Virus record (IMG/VR): IMGVR_UViG_3300033156_000316
Span: 1-25,387 of that record
Source: a virus
Reading direction: 5' to 3' (one strand)
Length of the DNA stretch: 25,387 nucleotides
Position numbers and translations under genes: made by a program. The notes beneath the pieces were generated by a model, which worked only from the letters and a program-made list of their open reading frames with translations, was not told the origin of the DNA and searched no databases. Every line of letters starts with the position of its first letter. Positions within the stretch are counted from its first letter, which is position 1. This document shows positions 3,841-23,926 of the stretch, piece after piece.

Positions 3841-3847
3841 CCAGACG

Positions 3848-3876: not shown

Positions 3877-3902
3877 GATTGACCGCGGAGAAGGAGGGGC
3901 TG

Positions 3903-4115
3903 ATGGGCGAGAAATTCAGTATTAAAGGGGTCGAGAGGGGGAGTATTCCCCCTCAGTTCTGGCTGTGGGCGGACATCGACGGCAAGGGGAAGCGCTGGAT
4001 GCTCGCGTTTTTCAACAATGGGAAAATTACGTTTCCCTTTGAGGAGTTTTCGGAAAATGCGGCCGTATTCGAGGGCTATCCGATAATTTTAATCCGGCAG
4101 CCAGAGGAGGATTAG
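3903..4115 (+). CDS. Hypothetical protein (70 aa)
   Basis: ATG 3903 follows GAAGGAGGGGCTG, an excellent ribosome site; a TTG at 3879 lies in the repeat region and is rejected. The sequence (GSIPPQFWLWADIDGKGKRW then GKITFPFEEF) suggests a compact beta protein. No family recognised. It is separated from the next start (4119) by three bases. Confidence 0.55.
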   Translation: MGEKFSIKGVERGSIPPQFWLWADIDGKGKRWMLAFFNNGKITFPFEEFSENAAVFEGYPIILIRQPEED

Positions 4116-4118
4116 GAT

Positions 4119-4430
4119 ATGAGCAGGCCATTACCCGACTGTGCGTATTGTGGTGGCTCGCTGAGCCGCTGTGGGCGGATTCTATTGAGATGTGGCGACT
4201 TGCCGGGCGCGCCAGAAGTGGGATGGCACTCGCAGTGCGCGGGCAAGGACAAGCTGTTTCAGTCGGATACTATTCTGTTTGGGGGTGACAAGGCCAAAAC
4301 CATTTTGTTTATGATTAACGACCGCGGGCGCAAGCACCCCTCGCAGGCACGGGTTGTCTCACTTCTAAAGAAGGGCGAGAAGGGCGGTTACAGGCGGGCT
4401 TACGGGCCGGGAATCGCATTCGACATGTAA
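4119..4430 (+). CDS. Putative zinc-binding protein (103 aa)
   Basis: ATG 4119 has GAGGAGG nine to fifteen bases upstream. The N terminus has a cysteine-rich patch: CAYCGG at about residues 8-13, Cys18, Cys25, and HSQC at 38-41, consistent with a zinc finger of unusual spacing. The remainder is basic with FMINDRGRKHPSQARVVSLLKK. No family recognised. It is the last intact gene before the large terminase. Confidence 0.55.
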   Translation: MSRPLPDCAYCGGSLSRCGRILLRCGDLPGAPEVGWHSQCAGKDKLFQSDTILFGGDKAKTILFMINDRGRKHPSQARVVSLLKKGEKGGYRRAYGPGIAFDM

Positions 4431-4446
4431 CAAGTGTTATAAGAGG

Positions 4447-4522
4447 CGTCCACGACCGGCTGTTCTCCAAAGGGATAGAATTCGAAAAGTACGAGATAAT
4501 ACCCGCCCCGTATCCGGCATAG
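4447..4522 (+). pseudogene. Truncated 3' duplicate of the gene at 3652-3840
   Basis: Bases 4452-4480 match 3791-3819 at 28 of 29 positions and keep the same reading (HDRLFSKGIE versus YDRPFSKGIE). They then diverge into FEKYEIIPAPYPA and a TAG at 4520-4522. No start codon or 5' part is present, so this is a remnant from recombination or a lost gene start. The TAG overlaps the purine-rich ribosome site of the large terminase. Confidence 0.6.
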
Positions 4523-4539
4523 AGAGAGGGTTATTGCAA

Positions 4540-6531
4540 ATGGCCTCAGTACCGGCAGAACGAATCATACGCGTGCGCGAGAACCCGCTTATCGAGGTCT
4601 TCGCGGCCATGCGGCCGCCGAGGATTCGTACCCTGCGCGAGTTCGCGGAAGCTGAAATCCGGATGCCGCCAGGTGGCCGGTACCCGCTGCGCCGGTTCTC
4701 CTGTAACATAATGCCGTGGTCTGCGGAGCTTTTTGAAATCCTTACCGCTATATTCCAGGGCCGGTCACCATATCGCAGGGTGTTTATGTTCGCGGACGTG
4801 CAGGACGGCAAGACCACGATGGGAATCGTTATCCCCCTGATGTACGCCTTGTTCGAGCTGAAAGAAAACGTGATTTTTGGCGTCCCGGACGTGGACCTCG
4901 CACAGGGCAAGTTCGACGAGGATATCAAGCCGATGATTGTAAATAGCAGTTACGCGGGCCTGCTACCGACGAAGGGCGGCGGCTCACGCGGCGGCAAGAC
5001 GAAGATGATGCAGTTCGGCAATGGCACCCGGCTGCGGTTCATGGGCGCCGGCGGCGGGGACGAGCAGAGGTCGTCATTCCCGGCGCGGGTCATATTTATC
5101 ACGGAAGTTGACAAGATGGATACTTCCGGCAAGGTATCGCGCGAGGCAGACCCGGTAACACAGCTCGAGGCGCGTTCGGACTCGTTCGACGAGCGGGCAC
5201 TCGTATTCGGCGAGTGTACCCGCTCGACCGAAAAGGGGAGAATTAACCAGGAAGTCTGCAAGAAGGGGACAGACACTAAAATTTACATCCCCTGCCCCCA
5301 CTGCGGCGAGTATATCACGCCGACACGAGAGCATTTCGGTGGCTGGGAAGATGCGGAAGATGTCATCTCCGCCCGTGACAGCGCTTTCTACCTGTGTGAC
5401 AAGTGTGAGCAGGCCTGGACAGAGCAGGACCGGCGCAAGGCGCTCAAGACACCCGTCCTGGTGTCGAAGGACCAGACGGTAACGCCGGACGGCGTTGTGC
5501 ACGGCGACCCGCCCAGAACGAACACTTTCGGCTTCCAGTGGAATGCAATGCTTTCGGGCCTCAAGTCAATCGGATACGTAGGGGAGCGGGAATACGAGGC
5601 TGAAATTTCCGATGACCCTAACCCGAAGAAGGCGCTGTATCAATTTGCCTGGGCACTGCCGTTCGACGATTCGATAACTGATTTGTCAAACCTCGACAAA
5701 AAAGTCATACTCGGGAAAATCGGCCGGCACAAGCGCGGGTTTTTACCGGAAGGGACACAGGACAGGTTGACGGTATTTATGGACATCGGGAAGTGGAGAT
5801 GCTGGTGGAGCGCCTGGTCGTGGCGTGAGGATGCGCAGGGGTACCTGATAGACTACGGCGTCGAAATCGTACCGCAGGGCCGCAAGACGAGCGGGCTTGC
5901 GATACTCGCCTCGCTGCGTGCGTTCAGGGAGGATATCCTTATACCGGGTTGGGTCAATGCATCCGGCCGGCAGGTACAACACAGGCTATGCTTTGTAGAC
6001 TCCGGATATGAGAGGGATATAGCTTACGAGTTTGTGAGGGAAAGCGGGCAGGACAGGTACTTCGCCACAAAAGGGCTTGGCTCCGGACGCGATCAGGAAA
6101 AGTGGCGTAAACCGGCAAAGGGTAAAAGCAAAGCCATCGGGCACGAATGGTTTGTCACGCGGCAGCCGGGCAATGTGCGGCTGTTGAATATGAATGCCGA
6201 CTTTTGGAAGCAGCAGGTACACGAGGGCTTCCTGGCCCCGGCCGGCGAGGCGGGCGCGCTATCGCTGTTTCTGGCGTCTGAGCGCGAGCACCTGCGGTAC
6301 GCGAAACAAATCGTTTCGGAACGCAAGCTCGAGGAGTGGGTACCCGGCAAGGGGCTAAGACTCTACTGGGAAAAGGTGGAGAAAGACAACCACTGGCTGG
6401 ACTGCGCTTACGGGTGCCGGGTGGCCGCCGACATGCTCGGCGCGAGTACGCTACCCCGTGCGGAGGAGAAGCGCAAGAAGCGCCGCGAAAAGGAACGCAG
6501 GGCAAAGAAACAAATCAGGACGAGGTATTGA
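4540..6531 (+). CDS. Terminase large subunit, GpA family (TerL)
   Basis: ATPase-nuclease that cuts concatemeric DNA and translocates it through the portal. Residues 84-93 are a Walker A-like loop (FADVQDGKTT, Lys91). Residues 182-192 (ARVIFITEVDK) occupy the Walker B position, with Thr where Asp is usual. A zinc ribbon follows (Cys252, Cys255, Cys286, Cys289), a GpA-family feature. The nuclease half has the expected acidic positions: Asp415 in FMDIG, Asp487 in FVDSGY and Asp621 in HWLDCAY. Length (663 aa) is normal for GpA. I prefer ATG 4540 to TTG 4534 because GAGAGAGGG ends nine bases before it. The basic tail ends KKQIRTRY, nearly the same as the small terminase end (IIRTKY), and hairpin copy 5 follows the stop. 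Confidence 0.93.
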   Translation: MASVPAERIIRVRENPLIEVFAAMRPPRIRTLREFAEAEIRMPPGGRYPLRRFSCNIMPWSAELFEILTAIFQGRSPYRRVFMFADVQDGKTTMGIVIPLMYALFELKENVIFGVPDVDLAQGKFDEDIKPMIVNSSYAGLLPTKGGGSRGGKTKMMQFGNGTRLRFMGAGGGDEQRSSFPARVIFITEVDKMDTSGKVSREADPVTQLEARSDSFDERALVFGECTRSTEKGRINQEVCKKGTDTKIYIPCPHCGEYITPTREHFGGWEDAEDVISARDSAFYLCDKCEQAWTEQDRRKALKTPVLVSKDQTVTPDGVVHGDPPRTNTFGFQWNAMLSGLKSIGYVGEREYEAEISDDPNPKKALYQFAWALPFDDSITDLSNLDKKVILGKIGRHKRGFLPEGTQDRLTVFMDIGKWRCWWSAWSWREDAQGYLIDYGVEIVPQGRKTSGLAILASLRAFREDILIPGWVNASGRQVQHRLCFVDSGYERDIAYEFVRESGQDRYFATKGLGSGRDQEKWRKPAKGKSKAIGHEWFVTRQPGNVRLLNMNADFWKQQVHEGFLAPAGEAGALSLFLASEREHLRYAKQIVSERKLEEWVPGKGLRLYWEKVEKDNHWLDCAYGCRVAADMLGASTLPRAEEKRKKRREKERRAKKQIRTRY

Positions 6532-6533
6532 CG

Positions 6534-6562
6534 GAAACCCCATGCGCAAGCGTGGGGAGATA
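6534..6562 (+). repeat. Hairpin repeat copy 5
   Basis: Consensus unit (hairpin 6538-6557) beginning three bases after the large terminase stop. The preceding ATCAGGACGA-GTATTGA (from 6514) also precedes copy 3. Confidence 0.92.
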
Positions 6563-6565
6563 GAT

Positions 6566-6594
6566 AAACCACAGATTACACAGATTACACAGAT
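6566..6594 (+). repeat. Tandem ACAGATT spacer repeat, copy 1
   Basis: CCACAGATT then ACACAGATT units, directly after hairpin copy 5. The purine-rich end (AAGAAGGAGAAGG) is the ribosome site for GTG 6609. Copy 2 is at 19737-19766, again right after a hairpin. Confidence 0.7.
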
Positions 6595-6608
6595 AAGAAG
6601 GAGAAGGC

Positions 6609-6806
6609 GTGAAACCGAAGAAAGTCGATGGGTTCGACGAAAAGATTTGCATTACCGTCAAGGTAAAAAAAGTTTTCTTGTGGAGGCTTAGGGTATTCCT
6701 GCTCCTCGTGAGAATCGCGGCAAAAATATATCCAGGACCCACGGAGTTGATAATCGATTACGGCATTGACAGGATAGTCAAAGGTATTGGAGAGGAGGGG
6801 AGTTGA
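6609..6806 (+). CDS. Small membrane-associated protein (65 aa), paralogue of 3377-3649
   Basis: GTG start with AAGGAGAAGG just upstream. The protein has KICITVKVKKVF, then a hydrophobic arginine-flanked helix (WRLRVFLLLVRIAAKIYP) and an amphipathic end. This is the same arrangement as 3377-3649, suggesting an old duplication across the large terminase gene. The stop overlaps the next ATG (TGATG at 6804-6808). Function unknown. Confidence 0.55.
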   Translation: MKPKKVDGFDEKICITVKVKKVFLWRLRVFLLLVRIAAKIYPGPTELIIDYGIDRIVKGIGEEGS

Positions 6807-7144
6807 TGGTAGAACTGGCAGAAAAGAGTTACAGGGAGATGGTGGCGATGGGCAAGGAGCTTGGTATTGAGGGCTGCCACGAAATGAAAAAGAAGGTGCT
6901 GTTAGAGAAGCTCCTGACGATGGGCGCAACTGACGGTGGGGATGTGAAGCCGCCTACAGGAGACACGCTGCCGGAATCCGCGGAGGTGAAGAAGGGCCGC
7001 TATTTATTCCCCCGCTCGGTGCCGTGCCCGCGCTGCGGCGCGATGGACACCGTGGCGTATTCCACAAAAGGGCGAGTACAGTACCGGCGGTGCCGGCGCC
7101 CGGTCTGCCGGCGTAACTTCACCGTGCGGGGAGAGAAGCAATAG
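6806..7144 (+). CDS. SAP/Rho-N-like plus zinc-ribbon protein (112 aa)
   Basis: ATG 6806 overlaps the previous stop and follows GAGAGGAGGGGAG. Residues ~5-38 (EKSYREMVAMGKELGIEGCHEMKKK...LLEKLL) look like a SAP or Rho N-terminal helix-extended-loop-helix, usually nucleic-acid binding. Residues 74-101 form a Cys4 ribbon: Cys74, Cys77, Cys96, Cys101 (PCPRCG ... RRCRRPVCRR) with basic flanks, similar in style to phage Ogr/Delta-like or transposase zinc ribbons. Two nucleic-acid modules make a regulator of late transcription or a packaging accessory plausible. This is inference. Confidence 0.6.
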   Translation: MVELAEKSYREMVAMGKELGIEGCHEMKKKVLLEKLLTMGATDGGDVKPPTGDTLPESAEVKKGRYLFPRSVPCPRCGAMDTVAYSTKGRVQYRRCRRPVCRRNFTVRGEKQ

Positions 7145-7149
7145 TCAAT

Positions 7150-7178
7150 GAAGCCCCATGCGCAAGCGTGGGGAGACA
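7150..7178 (+). repeat. Hairpin repeat copy 6
   Basis: Hairpin 7154-7173, followed by AGACA instead of AGATA. It fills the gap between 7144 and GTG 7188. ATGAAG upstream opens a 15-codon frame (7148-7195) through the hairpin that ends overlapping the next gene's start, so translated coupling is possible. Confidence 0.9.
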
Positions 7179-7187
7179 GGAGTATGT

Positions 7188-7406
7188 GTGACTGAGAAGC
7201 AATTCCAGTATTTTGCAATAATAATCGCCGTCCTCGGCGTTATCGGCGTTGAACTCAACGTGCGTAAAATAGGCGTGTGCTTCTATCTGTGGACTTTCAG
7301 CAACGCCGGCTGCATATACATCCATTACAGGCGCAGGGTGTGGGCTCATTTCTTTCTACACATCTATTACATGGCCCAGGCCGTCCGGGGGATACTGACG
7401 TGGTGA
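7188..7406 (+). CDS. Small membrane protein, PnuC-like fold fragment or phage membrane protein (72 aa)
   Basis: GTG 7188 follows AGGAGTATGT; the ATG at 7158 belongs to the hairpin repeat and is not preferred. The protein has two hydrophobic segments: FAIIIAVLGVIGVEL, then a Phe/Tyr/Trp-rich stretch KIGVCFYLWTFSNAGCIYI. The YLWTFSN motif recalls short PnuC-like membrane proteins found in some phages. Likely an inner-membrane protein of unknown role. It is the last gene before the 7.4 kb control segment. Confidence 0.55.
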   Translation: MTEKQFQYFAIIIAVLGVIGVELNVRKIGVCFYLWTFSNAGCIYIHYRRRVWAHFFLHIYYMAQAVRGILTW

Positions 7407-7467
7407 AAAGCGCATAAGAGCGTCCTGAAATATCTCGATTATTTTCAAGAATTATCCTCATTTCCCC

Positions 7468-7495
7468 TTGACAAACATGCTATATATGTTATAAT
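7468..7495 (+). promoter_or_regulatory. Consensus sigma70-type promoter with palindromic spacer
   Basis: TTGACA (7468-7473), 16-base spacer, TATAAT (7490-7495). Both hexamers are perfect and it drives the XRE gene. The spacer contains ACAT-gctatat-ATGT, an interrupted inverted repeat that could be the operator for autoregulation. Confidence 0.8.
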
Positions 7496-7517
7496 GTAGG
7501 CGAAAAAGGAGGAGATG

Positions 7518-7730
7518 ATGCGAAAAGACTACTTAGAAATCATCGGCGGGCGCATCAGGACCGCGCGGCGGAAGAAAAAAATGTCGCAAGCTGAACTCGC
7601 ACGGCGCATTGGCTCTGACCAGCCGGTAATCAGCAGAATCGAACATGGCAGACAAAACATCTCTATCGGCTACATCGAAAAGATTGCCTCCGCCCTGCGT
7701 GTTCCGATGCGCAGAATTCTCTGCGGCTAA
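7518..7730 (+). CDS. XRE-family helix-turn-helix regulator (70 aa)
   Basis: Minimal HTH_3/Cro-C1-type DNA-binding protein. Residues 22-46 give the classical helix-turn-helix (MSQAELARRIGSDQPVISRI then EHGRQ), and IGYIEKIASALRVP completes the five-helix fold. AGGAGGAG precedes tandem ATGs at 7515 and 7518; the second has the better spacing. It has its own perfect promoter, and downstream of it are paired 20-base direct repeats, plausible operators for this or another regulator. A single-domain XRE protein next to the structural operon suggests control of late genes, but its target is unproven. Confidence 0.88.
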   Translation: MRKDYLEIIGGRIRTARRKKKMSQAELARRIGSDQPVISRIEHGRQNISIGYIEKIASALRVPMRRILCG

Positions 7731-7744
7731 TTCGCCCACATCCC

Positions 7745-7764
7745 CCAAATCTGGTAAGTATTTT
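7745..7764 (+). repeat. 20-base direct repeat, copy 1 (putative operator)
   Basis: CCAAATCTGGTAAGTATTTT, repeated exactly at 7775-7794 with a 30-base period (about three helical turns). It lies between the XRE stop and a weaker promoter-like site. Confidence 0.7.
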
Positions 7765-7774
7765 GCCCGGATTA

Positions 7775-7794
7775 CCAAATCTGGTAAGTATTTT
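7775..7794 (+). repeat. 20-base direct repeat, copy 2 (putative operator)
   Basis: Exact second copy of the element at 7745-7764. The 30-base spacing would put two bound proteins on the same DNA face. Confidence 0.7.
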
Positions 7795-7815
7795 CGCGCA
7801 TTTCCAAAATAATTC

Positions 7816-7843
7816 TTGCGAAGTTCTCAGGCTGTAGTATAGA
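7816..7843 (+). promoter_or_regulatory. Weak promoter-like site before the structural operon
   Basis: TTGCGA (7816-7821), 16-base spacer, TATAGA (7838-7843). Each hexamer matches consensus at four of six positions. It sits 22 bases after the direct repeats and would give an RNA starting near 7850. Weak on sequence alone. Confidence 0.35.
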
Positions 7844-7849
7844 GAGGGT

Positions 7850-7931
7850 GTGAAGCCCAGGCCGATCACCTGGCAGAAAACTGGAAAGAATAGAGGCAGT
7901 TTGGTGCCAAACCACCGGACTGCCTTTTTTT
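7850..7931 (+). ncRNA. Putative short leader RNA ending in a terminator
   Basis: A stretch with no convincing coding frame and several local stems: CCAGG (7857-7861) with CCTGG (7869-7873), CAG-AAAA-CTG (7874-7883), then the terminator hairpin. With the promoter-like site upstream this would make an RNA of about 80 bases. It could be a small RNA or an attenuator or antitermination leader of the portal operon. No known RNA family recognised. Confidence 0.35.
7895..7931 (+). terminator. Strong intrinsic terminator
   Basis: GGCAGTTTGGTG pairs with CACCGGACTGCC as a 12-bp stem (two G-U pairs), with loop CCAAAC, followed by TTTTTTT. It would stop transcription from the XRE promoter just before the structural operon. 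Confidence 0.88.
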
Positions 7932-7955
7932 CTTTCCCCGTAATCGGAGGTATAC

Positions 7956-8225
7956 TTGGCACTCACTGACACCACGACACTTACCGAGGCACTCGCTCAG
8001 CTTAACAACAACCTTGTGTGGGAAGGCGATGCCACGAAGGCGCAGAACTACGTGGAGGCGGCGCGGTGGCTTCTGTTCAACCGGCCGCGGGTGAGTTCGG
8101 ACGCGGGCACTTCGCTAAACTACGAGATGATGGAGACACAGCTTGCGAAGGCCGAGGGGTACCTGCTCAGGGTCGGCAAGATAGCCACCAGGTCGCAATT
8201 TACACGCGGGAGAATGCTTGACTAA
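7956..8225 (+). CDS. Head-tail joining (gpW-position) protein (89 aa)
   Basis: It starts at TTG 7956 with GGAGG six to ten bases upstream; no ATG or GTG fits. The small helical protein (EALAQLNNNLVWEGDATKAQ, YVEAARWLLFNRP) lies just before the portal gene, where lambda has gpW, the head-completion protein. Sequence similarity to gpW is not obvious by eye, so the call rests on length, helical character and position. Its stop lies inside the portal start region (overlap of eight bases). It is the first gene after the terminator. Confidence 0.5.
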   Translation: MALTDTTTLTEALAQLNNNLVWEGDATKAQNYVEAARWLLFNRPRVSSDAGTSLNYEMMETQLAKAEGYLLRVGKIATRSQFTRGRMLD

Positions 8226-9726
8226 GAAAAAGACAGCCAGTGAGAAGCCGGCGGCAACAAGGCCCAGGAACCACAAGGTGAAGGTCGATGGCCATCGCGG
8301 CTATTACACATCTTACGGGTACCGGGCCGCGCGTGTAGCAAACAGAGAGGGACGGACGGCAACTACCGGGGCGGGCGCACGGCATCTTCAATATGACCGG
8401 GTGAAGCTTGTCAATCAATCGCGCGAGTTCATGCGCGACAATGCAATTTATAAGGGCATGATAAACCGGGCGGCCGCGTATATCGTCGGACCCGGGTTCA
8501 AGTTGCAGATGCTCACGGAAGACAAGGATTTGAACGATAAAGTCGAGCAGCTCTGGAAGGAGTTCTGGCTCGACCCGGGCGTGAGGGGTTTTTTGTCCGG
8601 ATTCCAGATACAAAAACTCGTGTGCCGCGAACTGTTGGTCGCGGGTGATACGGCGGTCCTGAAAGTGAAGGATGGCAAGCTTCAGACTATCGAGGCGGAG
8701 CAGATAACCAGCGGGCGCAGGACAGGCGGGATAAATCTCGGCAAATACGGCAATATAACCAGCTTTGATATCTGCCCGTACAGGGCTGGCGGGTTTGTGG
8801 ATACGGGGAAGCGTAAGAACGTCAAGGCGAAGGATGTCTTTTTCCTGTCGAATCCGGACCGGCCGTCAAGTACCCGGTCGGCGCCGCCCAGCCAGGCCTC
8901 GTTTACCATGCTGCACAGAATCAACGATGTTTGCGATTCCGAGGCCATTGCGTGGCAGATGCTCGCCCGGTTCGCGGTTGCCATCACGCAGAAGGACTCA
9001 GCGGAACAGGCTTACCTCACAAGTCGCGAAGACCCGAACAAATCCGGCGACGATACCGATGGCGACCTGGCAACCAGGTTGCACGAGCTCGACTACGCGC
9101 TGATATTCCACGGTGAGCAGGGCGAGGAAATAAAGGGTATCGAGCGGAACATACCCGCAAAGAATTTTACCGAAACGCTCCGAACTTTCCTGCGGTTGTT
9201 GGGTCTGCCGCTTGGCCTGCCGCTCGAGTTGATACTCCTGGACTGGACGCAGAGCAATTACTCACAGAGCCGGGCGGTAATGGAGCAGGCATACCAGATG
9301 TTTTTAGAATGGCAGATGTTGCTTGAAACCGGATTCCTCGAACGTGCCTACAAGTGGAAGCTGGCGCAGTGGATAGCCGATGGCAGTCTCGGGCAGCACG
9401 AGGGCGTGCTCAAGCACGGATGGATAAAGCCTACTTTCCCGTGGATAGACCAGCTCAAGGAGGCGCAGGCTTACGGCGTGAGGCTCGACCGCGGGCTGGC
9501 GACGCACGCGCAGGTACTCAAGACGCTTAACCAGGACCGGGACGAGGTGGTTGCGGCGCGAGAGGCCGAAATAAGGGATGCGATAGAACGCGCGCAAAGA
9601 ATCGAGGCGAAGACGGGCGAGAAGGTGCCTTACCAGATATTCTGCGGGCTTAAGCCGCCCAAGACGGAGCCGGGCAGGCCTGGCGGGTCGGAACCCGCAG
9701 CAGTGGACAAGGAAACGAAGGAATAG
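8218..9726 (+). CDS. Portal protein, lambda family
   Basis: Forms the dodecameric ring at the head vertex through which DNA enters. The lambda-portal signature is clear: 'SREFMRDNAIYKGMINRAAA' then VGPGF (residues ~69-94), a LVAGD segment near 140-144, and DWTQSNYSQSRAVMEQ near 342-357, matching the conserved NYSSxR of the family. Length (502 aa) is usual. The start is TTG 8218, overlapping the previous stop, with GGGAG five bases upstream; no better start is nearby. The C-terminal end is Pro/Glu-rich. A half-copy and a full copy of the hairpin follow it. Confidence 0.9.
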   Translation: MTKKKTASEKPAATRPRNHKVKVDGHRGYYTSYGYRAARVANREGRTATTGAGARHLQYDRVKLVNQSREFMRDNAIYKGMINRAAAYIVGPGFKLQMLTEDKDLNDKVEQLWKEFWLDPGVRGFLSGFQIQKLVCRELLVAGDTAVLKVKDGKLQTIEAEQITSGRRTGGINLGKYGNITSFDICPYRAGGFVDTGKRKNVKAKDVFFLSNPDRPSSTRSAPPSQASFTMLHRINDVCDSEAIAWQMLARFAVAITQKDSAEQAYLTSREDPNKSGDDTDGDLATRLHELDYALIFHGEQGEEIKGIERNIPAKNFTETLRTFLRLLGLPLGLPLELILLDWTQSNYSQSRAVMEQAYQMFLEWQMLLETGFLERAYKWKLAQWIADGSLGQHEGVLKHGWIKPTFPWIDQLKEAQAYGVRLDRGLATHAQVLKTLNQDRDEVVAAREAEIRDAIERAQRIEAKTGEKVPYQIFCGLKPPKTEPGRPGGSEPAAVDKETKE

Positions 9727-9731
9727 CCGCC

Positions 9732-9744
9732 GAAACCCCATGCG
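9732..9744 (+). repeat. Half-copy of the hairpin repeat
   Basis: GAAACCCCATGCG followed by TATTG and then the complete copy 7. The 3' arm is missing, so it cannot fold alone. It looks like the remains of a tandem pair. Confidence 0.7.
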
Positions 9745-9749
9745 TATTG

Positions 9750-9778
9750 GAAGCCCCATGCGCAAGCATGGGGAGATA
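9750..9778 (+). repeat. Hairpin repeat copy 7 (G-U replaced by A-U)
   Basis: Hairpin 9754-9773 carries GCATGGGG in place of GCGTGGGG, which turns the stem's U-G pair into U-A, so pairing is kept. AGATAGGAATAA then leads to ATG 9786. Confidence 0.92.
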
Positions 9779-9785
9779 GGAATAA

Positions 9786-11144
9786 ATGAAGGAAAACGGC
9801 CAATTGGGCGAGTGGCAGAAAAAGCTCTGGGTAATGGAGGCGCGTGCACTTGAAGGGTTTGTGCGTTCGGCATCTCAAATCGAGACTGACCCGGAACGGC
9901 TTATCGAGGCCGCGCTGCAAGCGGTCCAGCCGCGTAAAAGCCGGATGACAATGGAGGGCACCACCGCAGTCATACCGATAACTGGTTTCTTGATGAAAAG
10001 CCCGCCCGCCTGGCTGATGAAATACTTCGATATTACGGGCTACGAGGAAGTGGTTGCAGATGTCAATGCCGCCGTCGAGGACGAGAGTGTCGAGCAGATT
10101 ATGCTGCGGGTAGACTCGCCTGGCGGTGAGGTTGCCGGTGTCCAGGAGGCGGCAGACGCGATATTCGCGGCCCGGAAGGCGAAGCCGGTGAAAGGCTTTA
10201 TAGAGGACCTCGGTGCCTCGGGTGCGTACTACCTCGCGTCTCAGGCTCAGGAGCTCGGAACTAATCTTAACGGGCTCGTTGGCTCGATAGGCGTTTACGC
10301 AGTGTACATGGACCTCTCGAAGATGGCCGACGACCTCGGTATCAAGGTACACGTTATCCGCAGCGGCGAGCACAAGGGGATGGGCGTGGAGGGCGCGCCG
10401 ATATCCAAGGAGCAAATAAAGGGCATACAGGAAGTAATCGACGATATGGCGGCCAATTTCAGGGCTGCGGTGGAGCGCGGACGCGGGCTGTCCGCATCTA
10501 AAGTAAAGAAACTCGCCACGGGCCAGATATGGCTGGGCGAGAAATCGCGTGAACTGGGCCTGGTTGACAAAGTGACAACCATTTCGGCCATGCTTGCAGG
10601 TAATACAGATTCGAGTGTCAAGGTTTTGTCAGAGGAGGCAGGAGTTATGGCAGAAGAAAAAGAGAAGAAAGACCCGGCCGAAAAGGTTCAGGTCGTGGTG
10701 TTTGACGAGGAGGCCATGAAGGCAACTGCGGCCGAAGATGCCAGGAAGGCCGAAAAGGAGAACCTCGCGGCCCTGAAGGCCGCATTTCCCGAGGACCTCG
10801 CGTTTGCCGTCGAGCAGTACGAGGCGGGCGCTACGGTGCAGGAGGCGCAGGCGGCCTACGCCGGGGTGCTTGCCGGTAAGTTGAAGGCGAGCAAAGAGGA
10901 GAATGCGGAACTCGCCGGGAAGCTGAAGGAAGCGGCCACGGCGCCGGCCGATGCTTCCGGTGTGGAACCGATAGGGTTCGAGAACTCCGAGGCCGGCGAA
11001 GGTGGAGACTTCCTGAAGGCAGCCATCGCGCTTTCCAAGGAGAAGGGAATTACGAAGACAGCCGCGATGCAGAAGCTGGCAAGTGAAAATCCTGAAATGT
11101 TCGCTGCGTGGAAGGCGAGCCAGAAGCAGGTCCCGAAAAAATAG
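9786..11144 (+). CDS. Head maturation protease, S49 (SppA-like/gpC-like), with C-terminal scaffold region
   Basis: Serine protease that processes the prohead. Residues ~60-265 are the SppA fold: VDSPGGEV (109-116), DLGASGAYYLA with the nucleophile Ser145, GSIGVYAVY (166-174), and GEHKGMG with the catalytic Lys197. Residues ~285-452 are charged, Ala/Glu/Lys-rich and helical, as in lambda gpC where the C-terminal third is the scaffold Nu3. An internal ATG with its own ribosome site at 10647 fits that arrangement. Start ATG 9786 follows TAGGAATAA at the edge of hairpin copy 7. Confidence 0.9.
   Translation: MKENGQLGEWQKKLWVMEARALEGFVRSASQIETDPERLIEAALQAVQPRKSRMTMEGTTAVIPITGFLMKSPPAWLMKYFDITGYEEVVADVNAAVEDESVEQIMLRVDSPGGEVAGVQEAADAIFAARKAKPVKGFIEDLGASGAYYLASQAQELGTNLNGLVGSIGVYAVYMDLSKMADDLGIKVHVIRSGEHKGMGVEGAPISKEQIKGIQEVIDDMAANFRAAVERGRGLSASKVKKLATGQIWLGEKSRELGLVDKVTTISAMLAGNTDSSVKVLSEEAGVMAEEKEKKDPAEKVQVVVFDEEAMKATAAEDARKAEKENLAALKAAFPEDLAFAVEQYEAGATVQEAQAAYAGVLAGKLKASKEENAELAGKLKEAATAPADASGVEPIGFENSEAGEGGDFLKAAIALSKEKGITKTAAMQKLASENPEMFAAWKASQKQVPKK
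10647..11144 (+). CDS. Nested scaffolding protein (Nu3-like, 165 aa)
   Basis: Within the protease gene and in the same frame, ATG 10647 is preceded by GAGGAGGCAGGAG, the strongest ribosome site inside any gene here. The product begins MAEEKEKKDPAEK and is charged and helical: coiled-coil-like VLAGKLKASKEENAELAGKL and a basic C terminus (KASQKQVPKK) such as scaffolds use to bind capsid protein. Lambda's Nu3 is made in exactly this way from gene C. This is established for the family and inferred here from the site. Confidence 0.75.
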   Translation: MAEEKEKKDPAEKVQVVVFDEEAMKATAAEDARKAEKENLAALKAAFPEDLAFAVEQYEAGATVQEAQAAYAGVLAGKLKASKEENAELAGKLKEAATAPADASGVEPIGFENSEAGEGGDFLKAAIALSKEKGITKTAAMQKLASENPEMFAAWKASQKQVPKK

Positions 11145-16185: not shown

Positions 16186-16235
16186 TGCCGGGTTATAGAC
16201 CGACTGTTGCGGAACTTGACTGCTTGGAGATGTGA
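15460..16235 (+). CDS. Tail assembly chaperone, -1 frameshift extended product (GT-like, ~258 aa)
   Basis: After codon 227, ribosomes could slip by -1 on A-AAA-AAC (16134-16140), which lies within nine A residues. The new frame is open from 16140 to a TGA at 16233-16235, adding 31 residues (RNARRSVFDAWRRGLMPGY then RPTVAELDCLEM). The added piece looks like natural protein: it carries aromatic and hydrophobic positions, and its stop overlaps the tape-measure ATG (TGATG). This is the G/GT arrangement known in many siphophages. The slip itself is inferred. An alternative, a separate 16-codon gene from ATG 16182, is less attractive. Confidence 0.6.
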
Positions 16236-17677
16236 TGGCAGGCGGCGTGAAATTTGTCGTGACCGGAGATGTGAGCCACGTTGAGAAAGCTCTCCACAAG
16301 ATGCAGCGGCAGGTAGAGAGTCTTAAAGGCCAACTAAAAGCGGCGGGCAAAAAAGGCAAGGAGGGCGCGGAAACTGCCGGCAAGGGTTTCAATAAACTTG
16401 GAACAGCGACAAAAAAGGCACTCGACCCCGCCGTGCTTCTGTCCTATGCGGCCGGGTTTGTTGGAGTCCAGGCGGCTATAGGTAAAGTTACGGAAGCGCT
16501 CAAGGCGATGCATGAGGAGCGTAAACGCGGCGCGCAACTGATGCGCGAGTCCGCTACCGGCCTTGCGTCCCTTGCGCAGCTTGCGGGCGGCGACGCGGGA
16601 AAGTTACGCGGGCTGATTGAAAAGGCCAAGGAAGTACGCAAGGCGGGCGGGGCCCCTACCCTGACGGAAGCGGCAAACCTGGTTTTCCAACTCGAATCTG
16701 CCGGCGCTATTCAGGAACGGGGGTTTTTCGGCAAGCTCCAAACAGTCACGCCAGCAACCGAGGCCGCAGGCGCAGCGGCAAAGATACAGGCCGCGATGGG
16801 TTTCAAGGAAACCGGCAAGTTGCAGGATATTCTCAGTGGTGCGGCAGCGGCAGCCGCGCCCGTAACCGGCGCCGGGATTGGCGATATTCTGGGCGCGGCA
16901 ACGAAGCCCGCCAAGATTGCTCATACAATGGGCATCTCCGATGAGGAGTTATTTGCCGCGATTTCCATAGTTGCAAAAGGAACCGAAACGGCGGATGTAG
17001 CGGGTACGCAGGTCCAATCATTTCTCGTTTCGATGATGCAGAAACCCGAATACAAAGGATTGTCAATCCAACAGATGGTTGAAAAGGTTCAGAAAAAAGC
17101 CTTGCCAGAAGCGGAATTGAAAAAGTTTTTTGGAAGAAAAGAGGCCGCGCTCGGGTTTCTTGCGCTTGAGGGCGGCGAGTTCCCGGGAATGACAAAGGCC
17201 ATTACGGAAGCAAAAGAGACAAATCTAATTGGCAAGATAGTTGGAAGCGCGATGGCAATACCTGCTATCCAAGCGGTGCGGGGGCAGGTTGCACTCGAAG
17301 GCCAAGAGGAAGTAGTGGACATCGAAAAATTCGGCCTGAAACAAATAGAACGCGAAAAAGCACTGTCGAGAACGAGGATAAAATCAAAGGAAGCCGAAGA
17401 ATCAGGGGCAAAAAGATATGTGCGGGGGAAAGTTGGGGGGGCGGCGGAGTTTCTTGGCGCGGAGCCGGAAGTGGTTGAGTCTGCTGGGGGGGCGTTAACT
17501 GATGTATTATGGGGCATTGTTAAGACTGGGCTGAAAGGAGCAGAATACGCCGATCCAGGGACGTGGATATTGAAAGAAATATTAAAGGTGTTGCAGAGTA
17601 CCAATAAGAAGACGGCACCCGGCCCGACTCTTCCCAAAGACCAGATACCCCAAGCGGGAGCGGGAGGGGAGTGGTAG
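16235..17677 (+). CDS. Tape measure protein (480 aa)
   Basis: Sets tail length and helps DNA ejection. It begins MAGGVKFVVTGDVSHVEKAL, typical of tape measures, followed by long helical segments (KMQRQVESLKGQLKAAGKK...), an Ala/Gly-rich hydrophobic stretch (residues ~200-225: GAAAAAAPVTGAGIGDIL), and an 'IGKIVGSAMAIPAIQAVRG' segment. At 480 residues and about 0.15 nm per residue it would give a short tail near 70 nm. ATG 16235 overlaps the frameshift product's stop; GTG 16232 is the alternative. The 3' third has more A and longer Lys runs than the rest. Confidence 0.75.
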   Translation: MAGGVKFVVTGDVSHVEKALHKMQRQVESLKGQLKAAGKKGKEGAETAGKGFNKLGTATKKALDPAVLLSYAAGFVGVQAAIGKVTEALKAMHEERKRGAQLMRESATGLASLAQLAGGDAGKLRGLIEKAKEVRKAGGAPTLTEAANLVFQLESAGAIQERGFFGKLQTVTPATEAAGAAAKIQAAMGFKETGKLQDILSGAAAAAAPVTGAGIGDILGAATKPAKIAHTMGISDEELFAAISIVAKGTETADVAGTQVQSFLVSMMQKPEYKGLSIQQMVEKVQKKALPEAELKKFFGRKEAALGFLALEGGEFPGMTKAITEAKETNLIGKIVGSAMAIPAIQAVRGQVALEGQEEVVDIEKFGLKQIEREKALSRTRIKSKEAEESGAKRYVRGKVGGAAEFLGAEPEVVESAGGALTDVLWGIVKTGLKGAEYADPGTWILKEILKVLQSTNKKTAPGPTLPKDQIPQAGAGGEW

Positions 17678-17680: not shown

Positions 17681-18049
17681 ATGGCGACTAACGTCGGCGG
17701 AACATCCTGCGATATAGTAAACGCAACGGTAAATGCACTCGCAACTGCGCTTGACTTGTGGACCGTCGCGGGGCTCAACGGTATCGGCGCGATGGACTTC
17801 GGAGCCAACAAATCATCGTTTGTCGTAACTGCCGTTAAGTTCGATACTTCCGCTAATATAGAGACCTGGTTTGCAACGCTCCGGGCGTTGCAGGGGTATT
17901 CGATATCAATCGAAACCGGCCCGGGCAACGCCGTGGTTTCTACCGGCCTGCTTGTGGTCGAGGTTTCACGCGGGCAGCGCCAGGGCTGCATATATGAGGG
18001 AAATGACAGAGTGAGAGGGACGATGCAGTTGCAGGGGGTAATTCCATAA
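17681..18049 (+). CDS. Minor tail protein (122 aa), role unknown
   Basis: ATG 17681 follows the tape-measure stop by three bases with GGGAGGGGAG upstream. The protein is beta-rich (SFVVTAVKFDTSANIETWFA, GYSISIETGPGNAVVSTGLL, VVEVSRGQRQGCIYEGNDRV). In siphophages the gene after the tape measure usually encodes the distal tail protein, but this one is much shorter than those. I do not recognise a family. Confidence 0.5.
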   Translation: MATNVGGTSCDIVNATVNALATALDLWTVAGLNGIGAMDFGANKSSFVVTAVKFDTSANIETWFATLRALQGYSISIETGPGNAVVSTGLLVVEVSRGQRQGCIYEGNDRVRGTMQLQGVIP

Positions 18050-18367
18050 ATGGCCATCACGAGCTACTCACAGGCTTATCATGACGATATAGTGACCGTT
18101 ACGGCCGTGTCAGACCTTTCAGGCTTAATATACTACCATTGGTACCGCGACGGCGCTTATATAGGCACTACGACGTCAGGAAGCATGGATTTTCGCCTTG
18201 AGGCCGGTGACCAGGCGCGGGTCGAAGTTTTTGACACGAATGACCCCGACTATGACCCGGAGGCGAACACCCCGGAAGAATACCCTGCGCGCAGAACGTT
18301 GTGGTGGCTCCGGTCACTGAGCTCGGATGTTGATTATTATAGGGTTGAGCGAAGGGTGGGGCTATGA
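18050..18367 (+). CDS. Ig/FN3-containing tail protein, N-terminal part (105 aa)
   Basis: ATG 18050 follows the previous TAA directly. Residues ~10-62 look like an Ig-like sandwich (DIVTVTAVSDLSGLIYYHWY, RLEAGDQARVEVFD). Residues ~83-103 (TLWWLRSLSSDVDYYRVERR) look like the first strands of a fibronectin-III-type domain, after which the frame ends abruptly at VGL. The missing second half of such a domain appears at the end of the next gene (from residue 363). Its stop overlaps the next ATG. I therefore think this is the N-terminal half of a gene split by an inserted beta-helix domain. Confidence 0.6.
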   Translation: MAITSYSQAYHDDIVTVTAVSDLSGLIYYHWYRDGAYIGTTTSGSMDFRLEAGDQARVEVFDTNDPDYDPEANTPEEYPARRTLWWLRSLSSDVDYYRVERRVGL

Positions 18368-19701
18368 CGGTAAGGCTTGTACCTACTGACTATGCAGATA
18401 TAGCGGCCGCAGTTGCGGCGTGTGCGGCAACAGGTGATACTATCCGTCTTGAATCCGCGCACAGTCCGTTTCAAGGCGCGAACAACAAAAACATCGACCC
18501 CGGCGGCAAGGACATTATTTTCGAGGGCGACACAACAGACCCAGCCGACACTGTTATCGACTGCGAAAATTCTGGCCGCGCATTTTATATTCACAATGGT
18601 GAAACACTTGACTTGATTATCCGTAACCTGACAATTTATGATGGCTATGCTGTTGGTGCAAGTGTTTCTGGTGGTGGCGTATGGCTCACAAACACATCCA
18701 AGTTGACAATCAGTAATTGTATAATAGATGATTGTCGTGCTTGTTGGGGGGCCGGAATAAAAGTAGACGTTTCGTCCGAATTGGTGATGTCCGATTCAAT
18801 ACTAAAAAACGGCCACAACGCTGATTATGCCGGAGCTTTGTATTTTCATACTGCAACCGGAACTATAACAAACTGCCAATTTTACAGCAATCAAGCTGTT
18901 AGTGGTGGTGCTCTTTATTGCTATTCCAGTTCTCCTACTTTTACGTGCTGTTTATTTTATGACAATACTGCTGCCAGTCGTGGCGGTGCGATTTTTATAC
19001 GTCAGGATGCGCACCCAACATTCCATAATTGCACAATCACAGAAAACAGTCTTTCAACTTCGGTCAATCATGGCGGGGGCTTGCATACTTATAACGCCAG
19101 CGGTAGAGCCACGCTTACTGACTGTATCTTGTGGAATAACACGGCTCCGATACAACCCTATGACGCGCAGTGTTTCGGGGCGGTAGTTTTTAATTATTGC
19201 GATTGCCGTTCTGCTTTACCGTATATCGACGGTTCTTTCACTCGCAACAACTGCATAGAGGCCGACCCGCAATTTGTTGCCGGGCCAGGCGGCAATTATT
19301 ATCTTAGCCAGATAGCCGCCGGGCAAGATGCGGATAGTCCCTGCCTCGATGCTGGCAGCGATACAGTAACTGGTCTTGGACTTGGTGATAGGATAACTCG
19401 AACCGACCAGTCGTATGATGTGAGCCGCGTAGATATGGGGTGGCATTATGTGGGCGCGTTCGCCTGGGAAACTATCGGCATCGTACCTCACGATGATGCT
19501 CAATGGGTTTACAGTCTACTCAGCCCGCGTCTTGATGACCTTGCGGATGCGGAATTCCGGGTTGTCCCGGTAGACAAGGCGGGCAATGACGGTACTGCGC
19601 TTGCGCTGAGTTCAGAGAGGGTTGTCAGGACGCCGGATGGTCCCGACTTCACGGTGACTTTCGATTCAGGTACAACGAAAGTTACTTTTGCGGCGGTGTG
19701 A
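18364..19701 (+). CDS. Right-handed beta-helix ('choice-of-anchor Q'-type) tail protein with FN3-type end
   Basis: ATG 18364 overlaps the previous stop. Residues ~1-362 are a parallel beta-helix: opening VPTDYADIAAAVAACAATGD, repeated coils with turns such as NLTIYDG, SNCIIDD, NCQFYSN, CLFYDN and NCTITENS, and the ending EADPQF...NYYLSQI...SPCLDAGSD...VDMGWHY. That ending is the signature of secreted beta-helix proteins very common in planctomycete-like bacteria. Residues ~363-445 (WETIGIVPHDDAQW, AEFRVVPVDKAGNDG, VRTPDGPDFTV) are an FN3-type end. The helix DNA is AT-richer: about 37-40% GC in two 60-base lines versus 58-73% in neighbouring tail genes. Probably a receptor-binding or matrix-binding tail fibre that captured a host domain. 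Confidence 0.7.
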   Translation: MTVRLVPTDYADIAAAVAACAATGDTIRLESAHSPFQGANNKNIDPGGKDIIFEGDTTDPADTVIDCENSGRAFYIHNGETLDLIIRNLTIYDGYAVGASVSGGGVWLTNTSKLTISNCIIDDCRACWGAGIKVDVSSELVMSDSILKNGHNADYAGALYFHTATGTITNCQFYSNQAVSGGALYCYSSSPTFTCCLFYDNTAASRGGAIFIRQDAHPTFHNCTITENSLSTSVNHGGGLHTYNASGRATLTDCILWNNTAPIQPYDAQCFGAVVFNYCDCRSALPYIDGSFTRNNCIEADPQFVAGPGGNYYLSQIAAGQDADSPCLDAGSDTVTGLGLGDRITRTDQSYDVSRVDMGWHYVGAFAWETIGIVPHDDAQWVYSLLSPRLDDLADAEFRVVPVDKAGNDGTALALSSERVVRTPDGPDFTVTFDSGTTKVTFAAV

Positions 19702-19731: not shown

Positions 19732-19736
19732 AGAAT

Positions 19737-19766
19737 AAACCACAGATTGCACAGATTACACAGATT
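19737..19766 (+). repeat. Tandem ACAGATT spacer repeat, copy 2
   Basis: CCACAGATTGCACAGATT then ACACAGATT, directly behind hairpin copy 8, matching the order seen at 6534-6594. Confidence 0.7.
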
Positions 19767-19853: not shown

Positions 19854-20651
19854 ATGGCAATAAGCAATCAACCTCTAATCGTACCACGGCGGAGAGCGGC
19901 AATCCCGGCGCAGTTGCCGATATGGCTCCGAGGTCCTAATGCCTATCTCTTGCCTGAGCTGTCTGAAGGCGTCCACTTGCCGGAAGCCCGCCATGGCGAT
20001 GCCCTGCGTTTGAAACTTGCGGGCGTAGAGACCGAGAGCCTCATCGCGGTAGGAACGATTCCCGGCGTGGCCGTGCTGGCTGCAGGGGGCCGCAACGGGC
20101 CGGGGGTAGGGTGTCTGAGAGCCTCGGGCGACGGGACGCTGCTATCATGGTGTGCGCCCGGCTCGAACAGGTTCGGCTCGACTACCGATTGCAGCGTGGA
20201 CGGGAACCACCTACTCGAGGACGGCCGGTACCCCGGCAAGTGGCTCCGCGTCCAGGTGTATAATACTTACATGAATCCCGGCGTGGCGGAAGCGAAAGTA
20301 TTTCTTGCCGATGCCTACAACAACGGGCCGGGCCATGATGACCTCAGCGCGGCCGAGGCGGCCGCCGGTGATATCGAGGATTACACCATTTCGCTTACAA
20401 ATGATAGCCCGATGGACATCTTGCACGTGAAGGCGTGGCTTGAAGTAGGTACGGCACGGATAATAGAAATCAGCAGCGATGACGCGAACTACTATTCGCC
20501 GACCTACGAGGACCACATAAACACGCTTTTCTGGGCGCGCATCGCATCCGGGGCGAGCGAAACACTCTATTTGAGAAGAACGATAACGGCCGGGGCAGAC
20601 AGTGACCCGGGCGTGTTAAATCACCTGCAGTTTGCTTTTGACAGTATTTGA
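19854..20651 (+). CDS. Minor tail / structural protein (265 aa)
   Basis: ATG 19854 follows AGGAACGA next to hairpin copy 9. The protein opens MAISNQPLIVPRRRAAIPAQ and reads as a beta-rich structural protein: VETESLIAVGTIPGVAV, GRYPGKWLRVQVYNTYM, MDILHVKAWLEVGTARIIEI, ETLYLRRTITAG. Strand-rich, no signal peptide, in the tail-tip gene cluster, so a virion protein is likely. No family recognised. The GDIEDYTISL stretch resembles strands in fibre base proteins, but this is weak. Confidence 0.5.
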   Translation: MAISNQPLIVPRRRAAIPAQLPIWLRGPNAYLLPELSEGVHLPEARHGDALRLKLAGVETESLIAVGTIPGVAVLAAGGRNGPGVGCLRASGDGTLLSWCAPGSNRFGSTTDCSVDGNHLLEDGRYPGKWLRVQVYNTYMNPGVAEAKVFLADAYNNGPGHDDLSAAEAAAGDIEDYTISLTNDSPMDILHVKAWLEVGTARIIEISSDDANYYSPTYEDHINTLFWARIASGASETLYLRRTITAGADSDPGVLNHLQFAFDSI

Positions 20652-21197: not shown

Positions 21198-21956
21198 ATG
21201 CCTCTCATTTACGCAATGCCGGGAGTTGTAAAAAGTGTCCGTGTGATACCGCCGCCGGGCAGGCCGATAACTATCGCCCCGCCCCGCCCGGACTTCGCGC
21301 GCCGCTACCACGATGGTCGCGGTAAGTACCGTGTGTTCAATGCGGCTGAATATCGCTTCTACCGCTCGAATTCAGGGCCGCCGGCCGAGACGGACACGCC
21401 GTTTGCTACAAATGCGACGCTGCCGCACGAGCCGGCAGACGTGTACGCAGACGGCACCTGGTACCTGAGCGTGTCGTATTTCAACGGCGTTATAGATAGC
21501 GGGTTCCTGCCCGTGGGAGCCAATGGTGAGACTTACCTGCGGCTCGATATCGCGGGCGGCGTGGTTATAGGCTCGCCGCCGAACCCGGCGAATGAAGCGC
21601 AGCTCGAGGTTCGCGCAGGCGGGGTGGTTGCGGTTGTTGGCAGCTACTACCAGGAGGATGCGCTCAGGGCGACGCAGTGGGCGATTGCGTACACCTTTAA
21701 TGGTGCTAACCCGCCGGCGGATACGCCGGACTATACCGAAGCTATGCCGGGCCAGGCGTTATGCATTCTCGACTACGAGCTCACGGCCCAGGTACACGGT
21801 ACAACCGTCAAGGCGCGGGTCCAGACCCGCCGGGATGACGGCGGGTGGATTTATTCCGAAGATTCAGTTATCCTGACAGCCACGGCCGACGCGACCGGCC
21901 CGGCTGCACCCGAAGGACTCGAAAGCTGGCGTGGGCGTTTGCCGGAGGATGTCTAA
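21198..21956 (+). CDS. Minor tail / structural protein (252 aa)
   Basis: ATG 21198 with AGGAATAA upstream. The sequence has proline-rich beginnings (VIPPPGRPITIAPPRPDFA), then beta-strands (KYRVFNAAEYRFYRS, GTWYLSVSYFNG, ETYLRLDIAGGVVIG) and a FN3-like end (ELTAQVHGTTVKARVQTRR). The stop overlaps the next ATG (TAATG at 21954-21958), so it is coupled to the hub-type gene. No specific family recognised. Confidence 0.5.
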   Translation: MPLIYAMPGVVKSVRVIPPPGRPITIAPPRPDFARRYHDGRGKYRVFNAAEYRFYRSNSGPPAETDTPFATNATLPHEPADVYADGTWYLSVSYFNGVIDSGFLPVGANGETYLRLDIAGGVVIGSPPNPANEAQLEVRAGGVVAVVGSYYQEDALRATQWAIAYTFNGANPPADTPDYTEAMPGQALCILDYELTAQVHGTTVKARVQTRRDDGGWIYSEDSVILTATADATGPAAPEGLESWRGRLPEDV

Positions 21957-23926
21957 TGTCCATGACGATAATCGGCCCGGCGAATGTGAAGCTCACGAAG
22001 GAGCGGCTGCCACTTGTCTACACCAAGGCCGAATGGAATGGCTCGTGGCAGTACCGTTCCGAGATGCGCCTGCAGGAGATGCTCCTGCGTACATGTGGCG
22101 AGGACCTGGGCCGGTGTGTCATTTCCCGCCGTTACGGAAGCCTGAAAGACCCGAATGACAGCTCGATGTCTGTCAGGGGTACTATTAACCTCGATGGTTA
22201 TTGGATACAAATCCGCCTGGCGTCCGGTACGGGTTCGAAATCGTTGTGGACGGGCCAAATCGAGGCTGTAACACATGACATCTACGGCTCCGACCCGGCG
22301 CGTAGCGGAGTTCAGACGTGGACGGCATACTCACCGCTCCAAATCCTGCGAAAGAAACCCATCAGCCGGTCGTATTGGGAAGAAGATAAAGACCTCGGCT
22401 GGGTACCGAATATGAATTTACGCGGAGAGCACGGAACCCTGTACGGGAATCGGAGTGCCGGCAGAGGCCCCGACGGCGTTCACCTCTACGGCGGAGAGAG
22501 TATCTGGACGCATGAAGATGCCGTGAAGTACATCCTCAAGAAGTTTGCGGATAGCGACAACGGACCCAAGTGGAAGCTTGCGGGCCAGAGTGAGCTGCTG
22601 AAAGGAATCAGGAACGTCGTGCCATTCCGGGCAACCCAGACAGTTGCGGAGGCGCTTGCCTACCTCATATCACCCCGGATGGGAATTGACTACAAAATTA
22701 TCGAGTCCGGAAACGATTTCGAGATTCACGTCTTCGCGCTGATTTCGGAAGAAGTTTCATTCGGCGGTGTATCATTGCCCAAGAATCCTAACGTCGTTCG
22801 TATCAGGTCGTCGGAAATTCAGAACATGCCGACCGTGCAGGTTGTACGTTCGGACGAATTGAGATATGACAAAATCCGAGTACTCGGCAATCGTATGGTG
22901 CTGTGCAGCAGTCTATGGGGCGAGAAAACTGACGGGCCGGTCGATGCGCGATTTGAGAAGAAGTGGATCGACGAATTAGAAACGGAATACAAGGCGGGTA
23001 CGGGCACACCGGCCGATTCAGCGGAGGACCATGACCGCGCGCGCGCGGTAGACAAGTTCGAGTCCGTTTACCGTGTCTTTGCCGCAGATGACGAGTTTAA
23101 GAGCGCGGCGCCGACGCTGGATACCGAAGGCAATGTGGTGGGCGGCGAGCAGGACTATCAGATAAAGGTGCGTGAAACGTCGCATTTTACACCTCTGCGT
23201 GAAGGTTTCGACTATACGGTTGACCCGCCGGTAGACAACAACCCGCCTGGCTTCCAGTCTGGATTTCTGCCGCCAATGGTATATCTGAAAGATGTCTGGG
23301 CGCGTAACCGCCAGCTTACCGGCGAGCCTTACATCCGGGCAAACGAGGTGAGTATCGGCACGTCGGTGCTCTGGGATGACTGGGGGATGAGCATCGGGGC
23401 ATCCCCGGCGCATCTCCTGGCACTGGACCATTTTGAAAATGCCGCCGATACAGTTACCTGGCCGGAAAACAAGGGGTACGATTACGAGCAGATGATAATG
23501 ACTCTCGCCCGGCGCGCCGACCAGCGGCTCGTCCTGGTTTATGGTGATGAAGACGGCGAGATGGTGAAGGATATTGTTGTATCTTCGGCCGAATTGTGGC
23601 TGCTTATGCCGGATACGGTCGTTCACATCGACGGTTCGGGTGAAATAAAGAAATCGCCCGGCGAGATAGTGACACTTCGCAATGACTCCGAGTACCTAAA
23701 ATTTATCATGGCGGGTGCCATCGCCCGCTACCACAAGTCACGTGCACGGGCGAGTATTACCCTGAAAGGGTTTCAGTCCTGGGGCGCGCAACTCGGGAGT
23801 ATCCTGACCGTAGTTGACGAGGCGGGCGATACCGAAAAAATCGAAGCGCCGATTACTTCACTGCATTGGTATCATGGTGAGAATAAGGCGCCGATGACGA
23901 TAATCGGCGCGGGATTTGCCTTATGA
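21956..23926 (+). CDS. Large tail-tip protein, probably baseplate hub-type (656 aa)
   Basis: ATG 21956 has GGAGGATG upstream and overlaps the preceding stop; a more distal GTG at 21845 lies inside the previous gene. The protein is long, strand-rich and mixed: N-terminal barrel-like MTIIGPANVKLTKERL, then QMLLRTCGEDLG-type region (residues ~40-60), YISPRMGIDYKII middle (~240), and a C-terminal part ending APMTIIGAGFAL. Its size and place near the end of the tail-tip cluster suggest a central tail hub protein. No catalytic motif seen. Its last bases overlap the next start. Confidence 0.55.
   Translation: MSMTIIGPANVKLTKERLPLVYTKAEWNGSWQYRSEMRLQEMLLRTCGEDLGRCVISRRYGSLKDPNDSSMSVRGTINLDGYWIQIRLASGTGSKSLWTGQIEAVTHDIYGSDPARSGVQTWTAYSPLQILRKKPISRSYWEEDKDLGWVPNMNLRGEHGTLYGNRSAGRGPDGVHLYGGESIWTHEDAVKYILKKFADSDNGPKWKLAGQSELLKGIRNVVPFRATQTVAEALAYLISPRMGIDYKIIESGNDFEIHVFALISEEVSFGGVSLPKNPNVVRIRSSEIQNMPTVQVVRSDELRYDKIRVLGNRMVLCSSLWGEKTDGPVDARFEKKWIDELETEYKAGTGTPADSAEDHDRARAVDKFESVYRVFAADDEFKSAAPTLDTEGNVVGGEQDYQIKVRETSHFTPLREGFDYTVDPPVDNNPPGFQSGFLPPMVYLKDVWARNRQLTGEPYIRANEVSIGTSVLWDDWGMSIGASPAHLLALDHFENAADTVTWPENKGYDYEQMIMTLARRADQRLVLVYGDEDGEMVKDIVVSSAELWLLMPDTVVHIDGSGEIKKSPGEIVTLRNDSEYLKFIMAGAIARYHKSRARASITLKGFQSWGAQLGSILTVVDEAGDTEKIEAPITSLHWYHGENKAPMTIIGAGFAL

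Follow-up and report, generated by a model that had tools for sequence, protein, structure and literature searches.

A bacterial-type beta-helix between the two halves of a predicted FN3 domain in a phage tail-region gene

In an uncultivated tailed phage, a short gene behind the tape measure gene stops part-way through an apparent FN3 domain, and the remainder of that domain seems to resume only after a long beta-helix in the next gene. This raises the questions of whether the two flanks are one interrupted protein, where the helix came from, and what it might do on a virion. The window analysed here is the whole of a 25,387-bp linear virus record (IMGVR_UViG_3300033156_000316), in which the genes follow a siphovirus-like order of terminase, portal, protease, scaffold, major capsid, connectors, tail proteins and tape measure. 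A sequence-only reading of the locus had proposed that a host-type helix was inserted in an FN3 domain and split a tail gene into two overlapping genes; the ORF coordinates, the ATGA overlap and the return of the FN3 sequence at residue 363 are as it gave them (Table 1). The split gene is assigned to the tail region by its position after the tape measure match, a position conserved in relatives, and not through a family match of its own, and the gene at 21845 is likewise a putative tail hub by position. No Pfam or PHROGs family was matched by the 122-aa gene that precedes the split gene, and whole-ORF scans of Pfam, PHROGs and NCBIfam gave no family match in residues 363-445 of ORF2.

Table 1. 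Coordinates of the split gene, its insert, the neighbouring tail-region genes and the palindromic repeat in the window
Feature	Position	Strand	Evidence or remark
Tape measure protein (481 aa)	16232..17677	+	PF10145 1.2e-7 (slightly below the Pfam cut-off), phrog_28 7e-7; homologs in 5/5 relatives
Small gene (122 aa) between tape measure and split gene	17681..18049	+	Same slot in L053 and L083
ORF1, 5' part of split gene (105 aa); N-terminal Ig-like domain and first FN3 strands, ends ...DVDYYRVERRVGL	18050..18367	+	Five-relative profile, hmm 24-100, 35 bits; alignment
Left GTGGG copy at junction (5 bp)	18356..18360		Sequence
Insert as bounded by the GTGGG copies (1094 bp)	18361..19454	+	Sequence and comparison with relatives
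ORF2 (445 aa)	18364..19701	+	ATGA overlap with ORF1
ATGA start/stop overlap	18364..18367	+	ORF2 in -1 frame relative to ORF1
Right-handed beta-helix, ORF2 residues 1-362, VRLVPTDYADIAAAVAACAATGDTIRL to DPQF..SPCLDAG..VDMGWHY	18364..19449	+	PF13229 1.3e-20, PF05048 2.6e-6, PF02415 4.9e-5
Right GTGGG copy at junction	19450..19454		Sequence
3' part of split gene, ORF2 residues 363-445; remaining FN3 strands and conserved ...VRTPDGPDF... tail	19450..19701	+	Five-relative profile, hmm 113-179, 43 bits
Next tail-region gene	19854..20651	+	Syntenic in 5/5 relatives (tblastn)
Tail-region gene	21198..21956	+	Syntenic in relatives whose sequence extends that far (tblastn)
Putative tail hub gene	21845..23926	+	Syntenic in relatives; tblastn 22-26% identity, E down to 5e-43
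Copies of palindrome CCCCATGCGCAAGCGTGGGG	694, 916, 1020, 3852, 6538, 7154, 9754, 19707, 19818, 20665(-), 21165, 25117

Direct searches of viral contigs and annotated phages with the 5' half, the 3' half and the helix returned no relative and one weak partial match to the helix. Relatives were reached by a profile of the major capsid protein (59 related contigs) and then by one of the major tail protein, which added further tail modules; L053 was the first contig in which the joined flanks matched one uninterrupted ORF, L066 followed, and L074, L075 and L076 were found by a profile scan. In these five contigs the gene is one unbroken ORF and the gene order is conserved, the gene lying between the homologs of the tape measure and of the gene at 19854 in 5/5, with a homolog of the gene at 21845 farther along in L053, L074, L075, L076 and L066. 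The beta-helix family PF13229 is absent from the entire record of each. A more distant FN3-like protein, also uninterrupted, is found elsewhere in contig L068. The profile built from the five intact relatives only, with the window sequence left out, matches both halves of the split gene, gives 86.8 bits on the joined flanks, and makes no other match in the window that passes the inclusion threshold. Both halves retain residues that are invariant among the relatives (24/42 positions). By this comparison, one small Ig+FN3-like protein is divided between ORF1 and residues 363-445 of ORF2, much as the sequence-only reading had supposed.

In the model of the intact L075 protein (pLDDT 70), an N-terminal beta-sandwich is followed by an FN3-like one whose strands are in FN3-like order. 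The best Foldseek matches of this model in the PDB are tandem FN3 chains (E=1.5e-4, with a TM of only about 0.3); among viruses it matches FN3 and tail proteins of phages. By sequence the intact relatives have no Pfam FN3 match, and their assignment to FN3 follows from strand order and structural match. When aligned to the intact protein, the break (...DYYRVERRVG / VGAFAWETIG...) falls between predicted strands 83-92 and 95-102, which in the model is the tip, or turn, of a beta-hairpin in the predicted FN3 domain. It had been proposed that the flanks form one FN3 fold, and the model agrees with this. Neither of the two outcomes that would have contradicted the sequence-only reading, flanks that do not make one FN3 fold and relatives that all carry the helix, was thus observed.

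Joining the flanks at the GTGGG copies yields an in-frame ...YRVERRVGAFAWET... (...RRVGAFAWE...), in agreement with the relatives. Because the length of the insert leaves a remainder of 2 when divided by three, the frame changes and the gene is divided into two ATGA-coupled ORFs, the frames of which overlap only in 18349-18364. The GTGGG copies are weak evidence on mechanism, since 5-bp words are often shared near random points of the window. A target-site duplication was dropped as an explanation of them, words of at least 5 bp being shared near more than half of random point pairs. A programmed frameshift was rejected as well: the junction has no classical slippery site or heptamer, and the RNA downstream of it has no unusual or frameshift-stimulating structure (fold z = +0.67).

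The inserted part of ORF2 matches PF13229 at 74.1 bits against a curated cut-off of 25.9, which places it among right-handed beta-helices, and it also matches NosD (PF05048) and Chlam_PMP (PF02415, over its cut-off), so that the complete beta-helix which had been read between the two halves is confirmed. It starts with the usual cap and ends with ...DPQF...GGNYYL...SPCLDAG...VDMGWHY; the insert therefore covers one whole domain, and the boundaries of the insert coincide with those of the helix domain. Cysteines are frequent in the helix (16, or 4.4%, against 0-1.6% in the other proteins checked). No PHROG was matched, only one weak phage match was obtained (30% over 20% of the query), and there was no sequence match among solved structures; the single-sequence model of ORF2 is poor, with a pLDDT of 38. 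Other kinds of element were also considered and set aside, namely an intron (no Rfam match), a mobile element (the inserted protein matches beta-helix families only, with no transposase or endonuclease) and a defence protein (no PADLOC match).

Of the named cellular proteins found, a choice-of-anchor Q protein from a plasmid of Runella (Bacteroidota), WP_114070735, matches the helix best, at about 30% identity, with the repeated units aligned up to the VDMG end (E=3e-25 in a two-sequence search, 1e-11 against plasmids). Like this bacterial protein and others of the PF13229 class, the helix is a whole domain that includes the DPxF...GGNYxL...SPCxDAG...VDMG ending, and it carries the C-terminal choice-of-anchor Q signature DPxF...SPCxDAG...DMG. 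The NCBIfam choice-of-anchor Q model did not match; only POMP_repeat and NosD_copper_fam did, both weakly. Unlike the bacterial proteins, the helix is embedded in a phage tail-region gene and has no visible signal peptide or surface anchor, as ORF2 starts MTVRLVPTDY without a hydrophobic leader and FN3 sequence directly follows the helix. The term "host-type" used in the sequence-only reading is therefore right in the sense of cellular-type, whereas "host" is not supported, and neither is a planctomycete host, the best cellular match found being from Bacteroidota. In scans of the genome collection, neither the palindromic repeat nor the major tail protein gave a match that would point to a host.

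The composition of the insert differs from that of the rest of the window. Its GC content is 47.6% and its GC3 42.5%, compared to a GC3 of 54-79% in every other gene tested; with the codon usage of the other genes, its amino acids would be expected to give a GC3 of 66.3% (z = -9.8). The AT-richer DNA noticed earlier is thus real but milder than the 37-40% GC then estimated, the lowest 300-bp windows having 40.7-42%. This codon usage makes a recent gain of the helix from an AT-richer source most likely. Taken with the five empty-site relatives and the domain-exact boundaries, the foreign codon usage upholds the proposal that an insertion split one gene into two coupled ORFs. The tape measure gene has the next lowest GC3 after the helix (z = -6.0), significantly low and unlike most other structural genes.

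The account that we favour, with moderate confidence, is that the phage lineage captured a complete bacterial-type choice-of-anchor Q beta-helix, that the insertion took place in an FN3 hairpin and left two coupled ORFs, and that the FN3 domain reassembles and displays the helix. Comparison with the relatives shows the capture itself and the insertion into the hairpin tip. Both ORFs would then be made: ORF1 would end after the first FN3 strands, and ribosomes would restart at the overlapping ATG to produce the helix and the remaining strands. The halves would pair and restore the FN3 domain on the tail, from which the helix would loop out and bind surfaces in the manner of an adhesin. That both halves are translated, that the FN3 domain re-forms and that the helix comes to face outward from the tail and to serve in adhesion is the most likely course of events, and display on the tail is plausible from the gene order. 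Split FN3 domains are known from protein engineering to reassemble. More tentatively, a tail FN3 domain made from two separately translated, ATGA-coupled polypeptides with a captured bacterial beta-helix adhesin between them may be a natural case of FN3 fragment complementation.

The adhesion reading is drawn from Pmp-like GGA[ILV]/FxxN motifs in the helix (GGAL 181, GGAI 207, FYDN 198 and FTRN 292 of ORF2), motifs that are required for adhesion in chlamydial Pmps (PMC2997323). It is an analogy and not a statement of membership: like the Pmp adhesins (PF02415), the helix carries both motifs, but it is a short domain in a phage with only two of each, and ORF2 lacks an autotransporter barrel. 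Molecular mimicry had also been suggested for the helix; nothing supports it, and a role in adhesion or receptor binding explains the helix more economically.

In a study of phage domain shuffling (PMC10684548), pectin-lyase-like and Ig-like domains are among those over-represented where receptor-binding and baseplate proteins show recent mosaicism, and there too beta-helix and Ig-type domains are exchanged or gained in tail proteins and tied to host interaction. The tail examples considered from that study swap a C-terminal domain, whereas here the helix lies inside a beta-sandwich loop, empty-site relatives exist and what was one gene now consists of two coupled ORFs. The recipient resembles the Ig/FN3 tail proteins of tailed phages in being an Ig+FN3 protein with Foldseek matches to phage FN3 and tail proteins, but its FN3 domain is itself interrupted by another domain. 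Capture as such is a known kind of event, of which an insertion inside an FN3 hairpin that divides the gene into coupled ORFs, with relatives in which the site is empty, is a new form. As a case of domain capture in a phage tail-region gene it is unusually clean, given these relatives, the insertion exactly at a hairpin and the foreign codon usage. It identifies a loop of this FN3 scaffold that can accommodate 360 additional residues, and it provides a natural case, open to testing, of an FN3 protein in two pieces and of a way in which phages of uncultivated bacteria might acquire binding modules. The captured helix may give the virion a new surface-binding part.

The same architecture could arise with one continuous protein, a single FN3 protein with an inserted beta-helix, if an occasional -1 ribosome slip fused the products or a base-call error at the junction hid one continuous ORF. 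We think this rather improbable. In its favour, ORF2 is open upstream to 18349, which leaves the two frames overlapping for about 15 nt at the junction, the other junction is already in frame, and a change of one base in length close to the left junction would be enough. ATGA overlaps are, however, ordinary translational coupling, slippery heptamer and stimulatory structure are both lacking, and the junction is covered by one contig only, the 99.9% identical L006 spanning just the left part, so no second contig crosses it for comparison. Less probable again is a non-adaptive or decaying state, in which a tail-region gene was broken by the insertion and the helix is carried as a passenger or exists as a protein by itself. 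The broken frame, the uncultivated phage, the 18 of 42 relative-invariant positions that have changed and the divergence of the window protein, which is the most diverged member (29-37% identity, against 40-66% among the relatives), would all fit decay. Yet no stop interrupts either half or the 362 codons of the helix, the helix is in frame with the C half, and the C half keeps its conserved motifs; the whole family is diverse, so divergence by itself is no proof of decay.

Beta-helix tailspikes are often depolymerases, and the helix might be an enzyme-like tailspike domain, a polysaccharide lyase or hydrolase, in place of a binding module, with ORF1 as a part that could bind such a tailspike to the particle. 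The prevalence of pectin-lyase-like domains among shuffled receptor-binding proteins (PMC10684548) would agree with such a role, but ORF2 matches general beta-helix families only and no enzyme family, and the matched cellular class is that of choice-of-anchor Q proteins; an enzymatic role is unlikely. That the helix is ancestral and was cleanly lost in the five relatives is very unlikely. Of the six phages the one in the window is the most diverged, so this sample by itself does not determine the direction, but the codon usage is foreign to the phage, a beta-helix match is found in 0/5 relatives, and their ancestor would have needed a clean loss that restored the FN3 hairpin. An assembly chimera of phage and bacterial reads, to which the composition shift and the single contig might point, is scarcely credible: both flanks come from the same gene in the correct order and orientation, the insert starts and ends at domain boundaries, and a chimera would not normally be expected to resume the same hairpin at its following codon.

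Bacterial-type beta-helix ORFs are carried by the related phages L059 and L007 also, in other places. In L059, a distant relative (29% capsid identity), a 651-aa beta-helix protein lies directly after the capsid gene (L059:10658-12613), with an apparent bacterial signal peptide at its start and an Ig/cadherin-like stretch at its end. A record of L007, which is a capsid relative, has a 548-aa ORF (L079:706-2352) that starts as a bacterial-type beta-helix does (YYIDYAGGDDANTGLS); a Ser-rich ORF comes after it.

Several repeats were found elsewhere in the window. The palindrome listed in Table 1 (a hairpin with a GCAA loop) is present in 12 copies within a longer repeat, mostly intergenic, where 0.02 would be expected by chance. 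It had no exact 25-base match in the genome collection and was found in one other viral contig, L006 (IMGVR_UViG_3300033150_000880), which is a second record of the same phage, 99.91% identical to window positions 2-11117 and not reaching the tail genes. Two of the palindromic repeats are immediately followed by near-identical ATAAACCACAGATTACACAGATTACACAGAT stretches (6564-6594 and 19735-19765) with a 9-nt internal period, and a perfect 20-bp direct repeat, CCAAATCTGGTAAGTATTTT, is present at 7745-7764 and 7775-7794, 30 bp apart, upstream of the portal gene.
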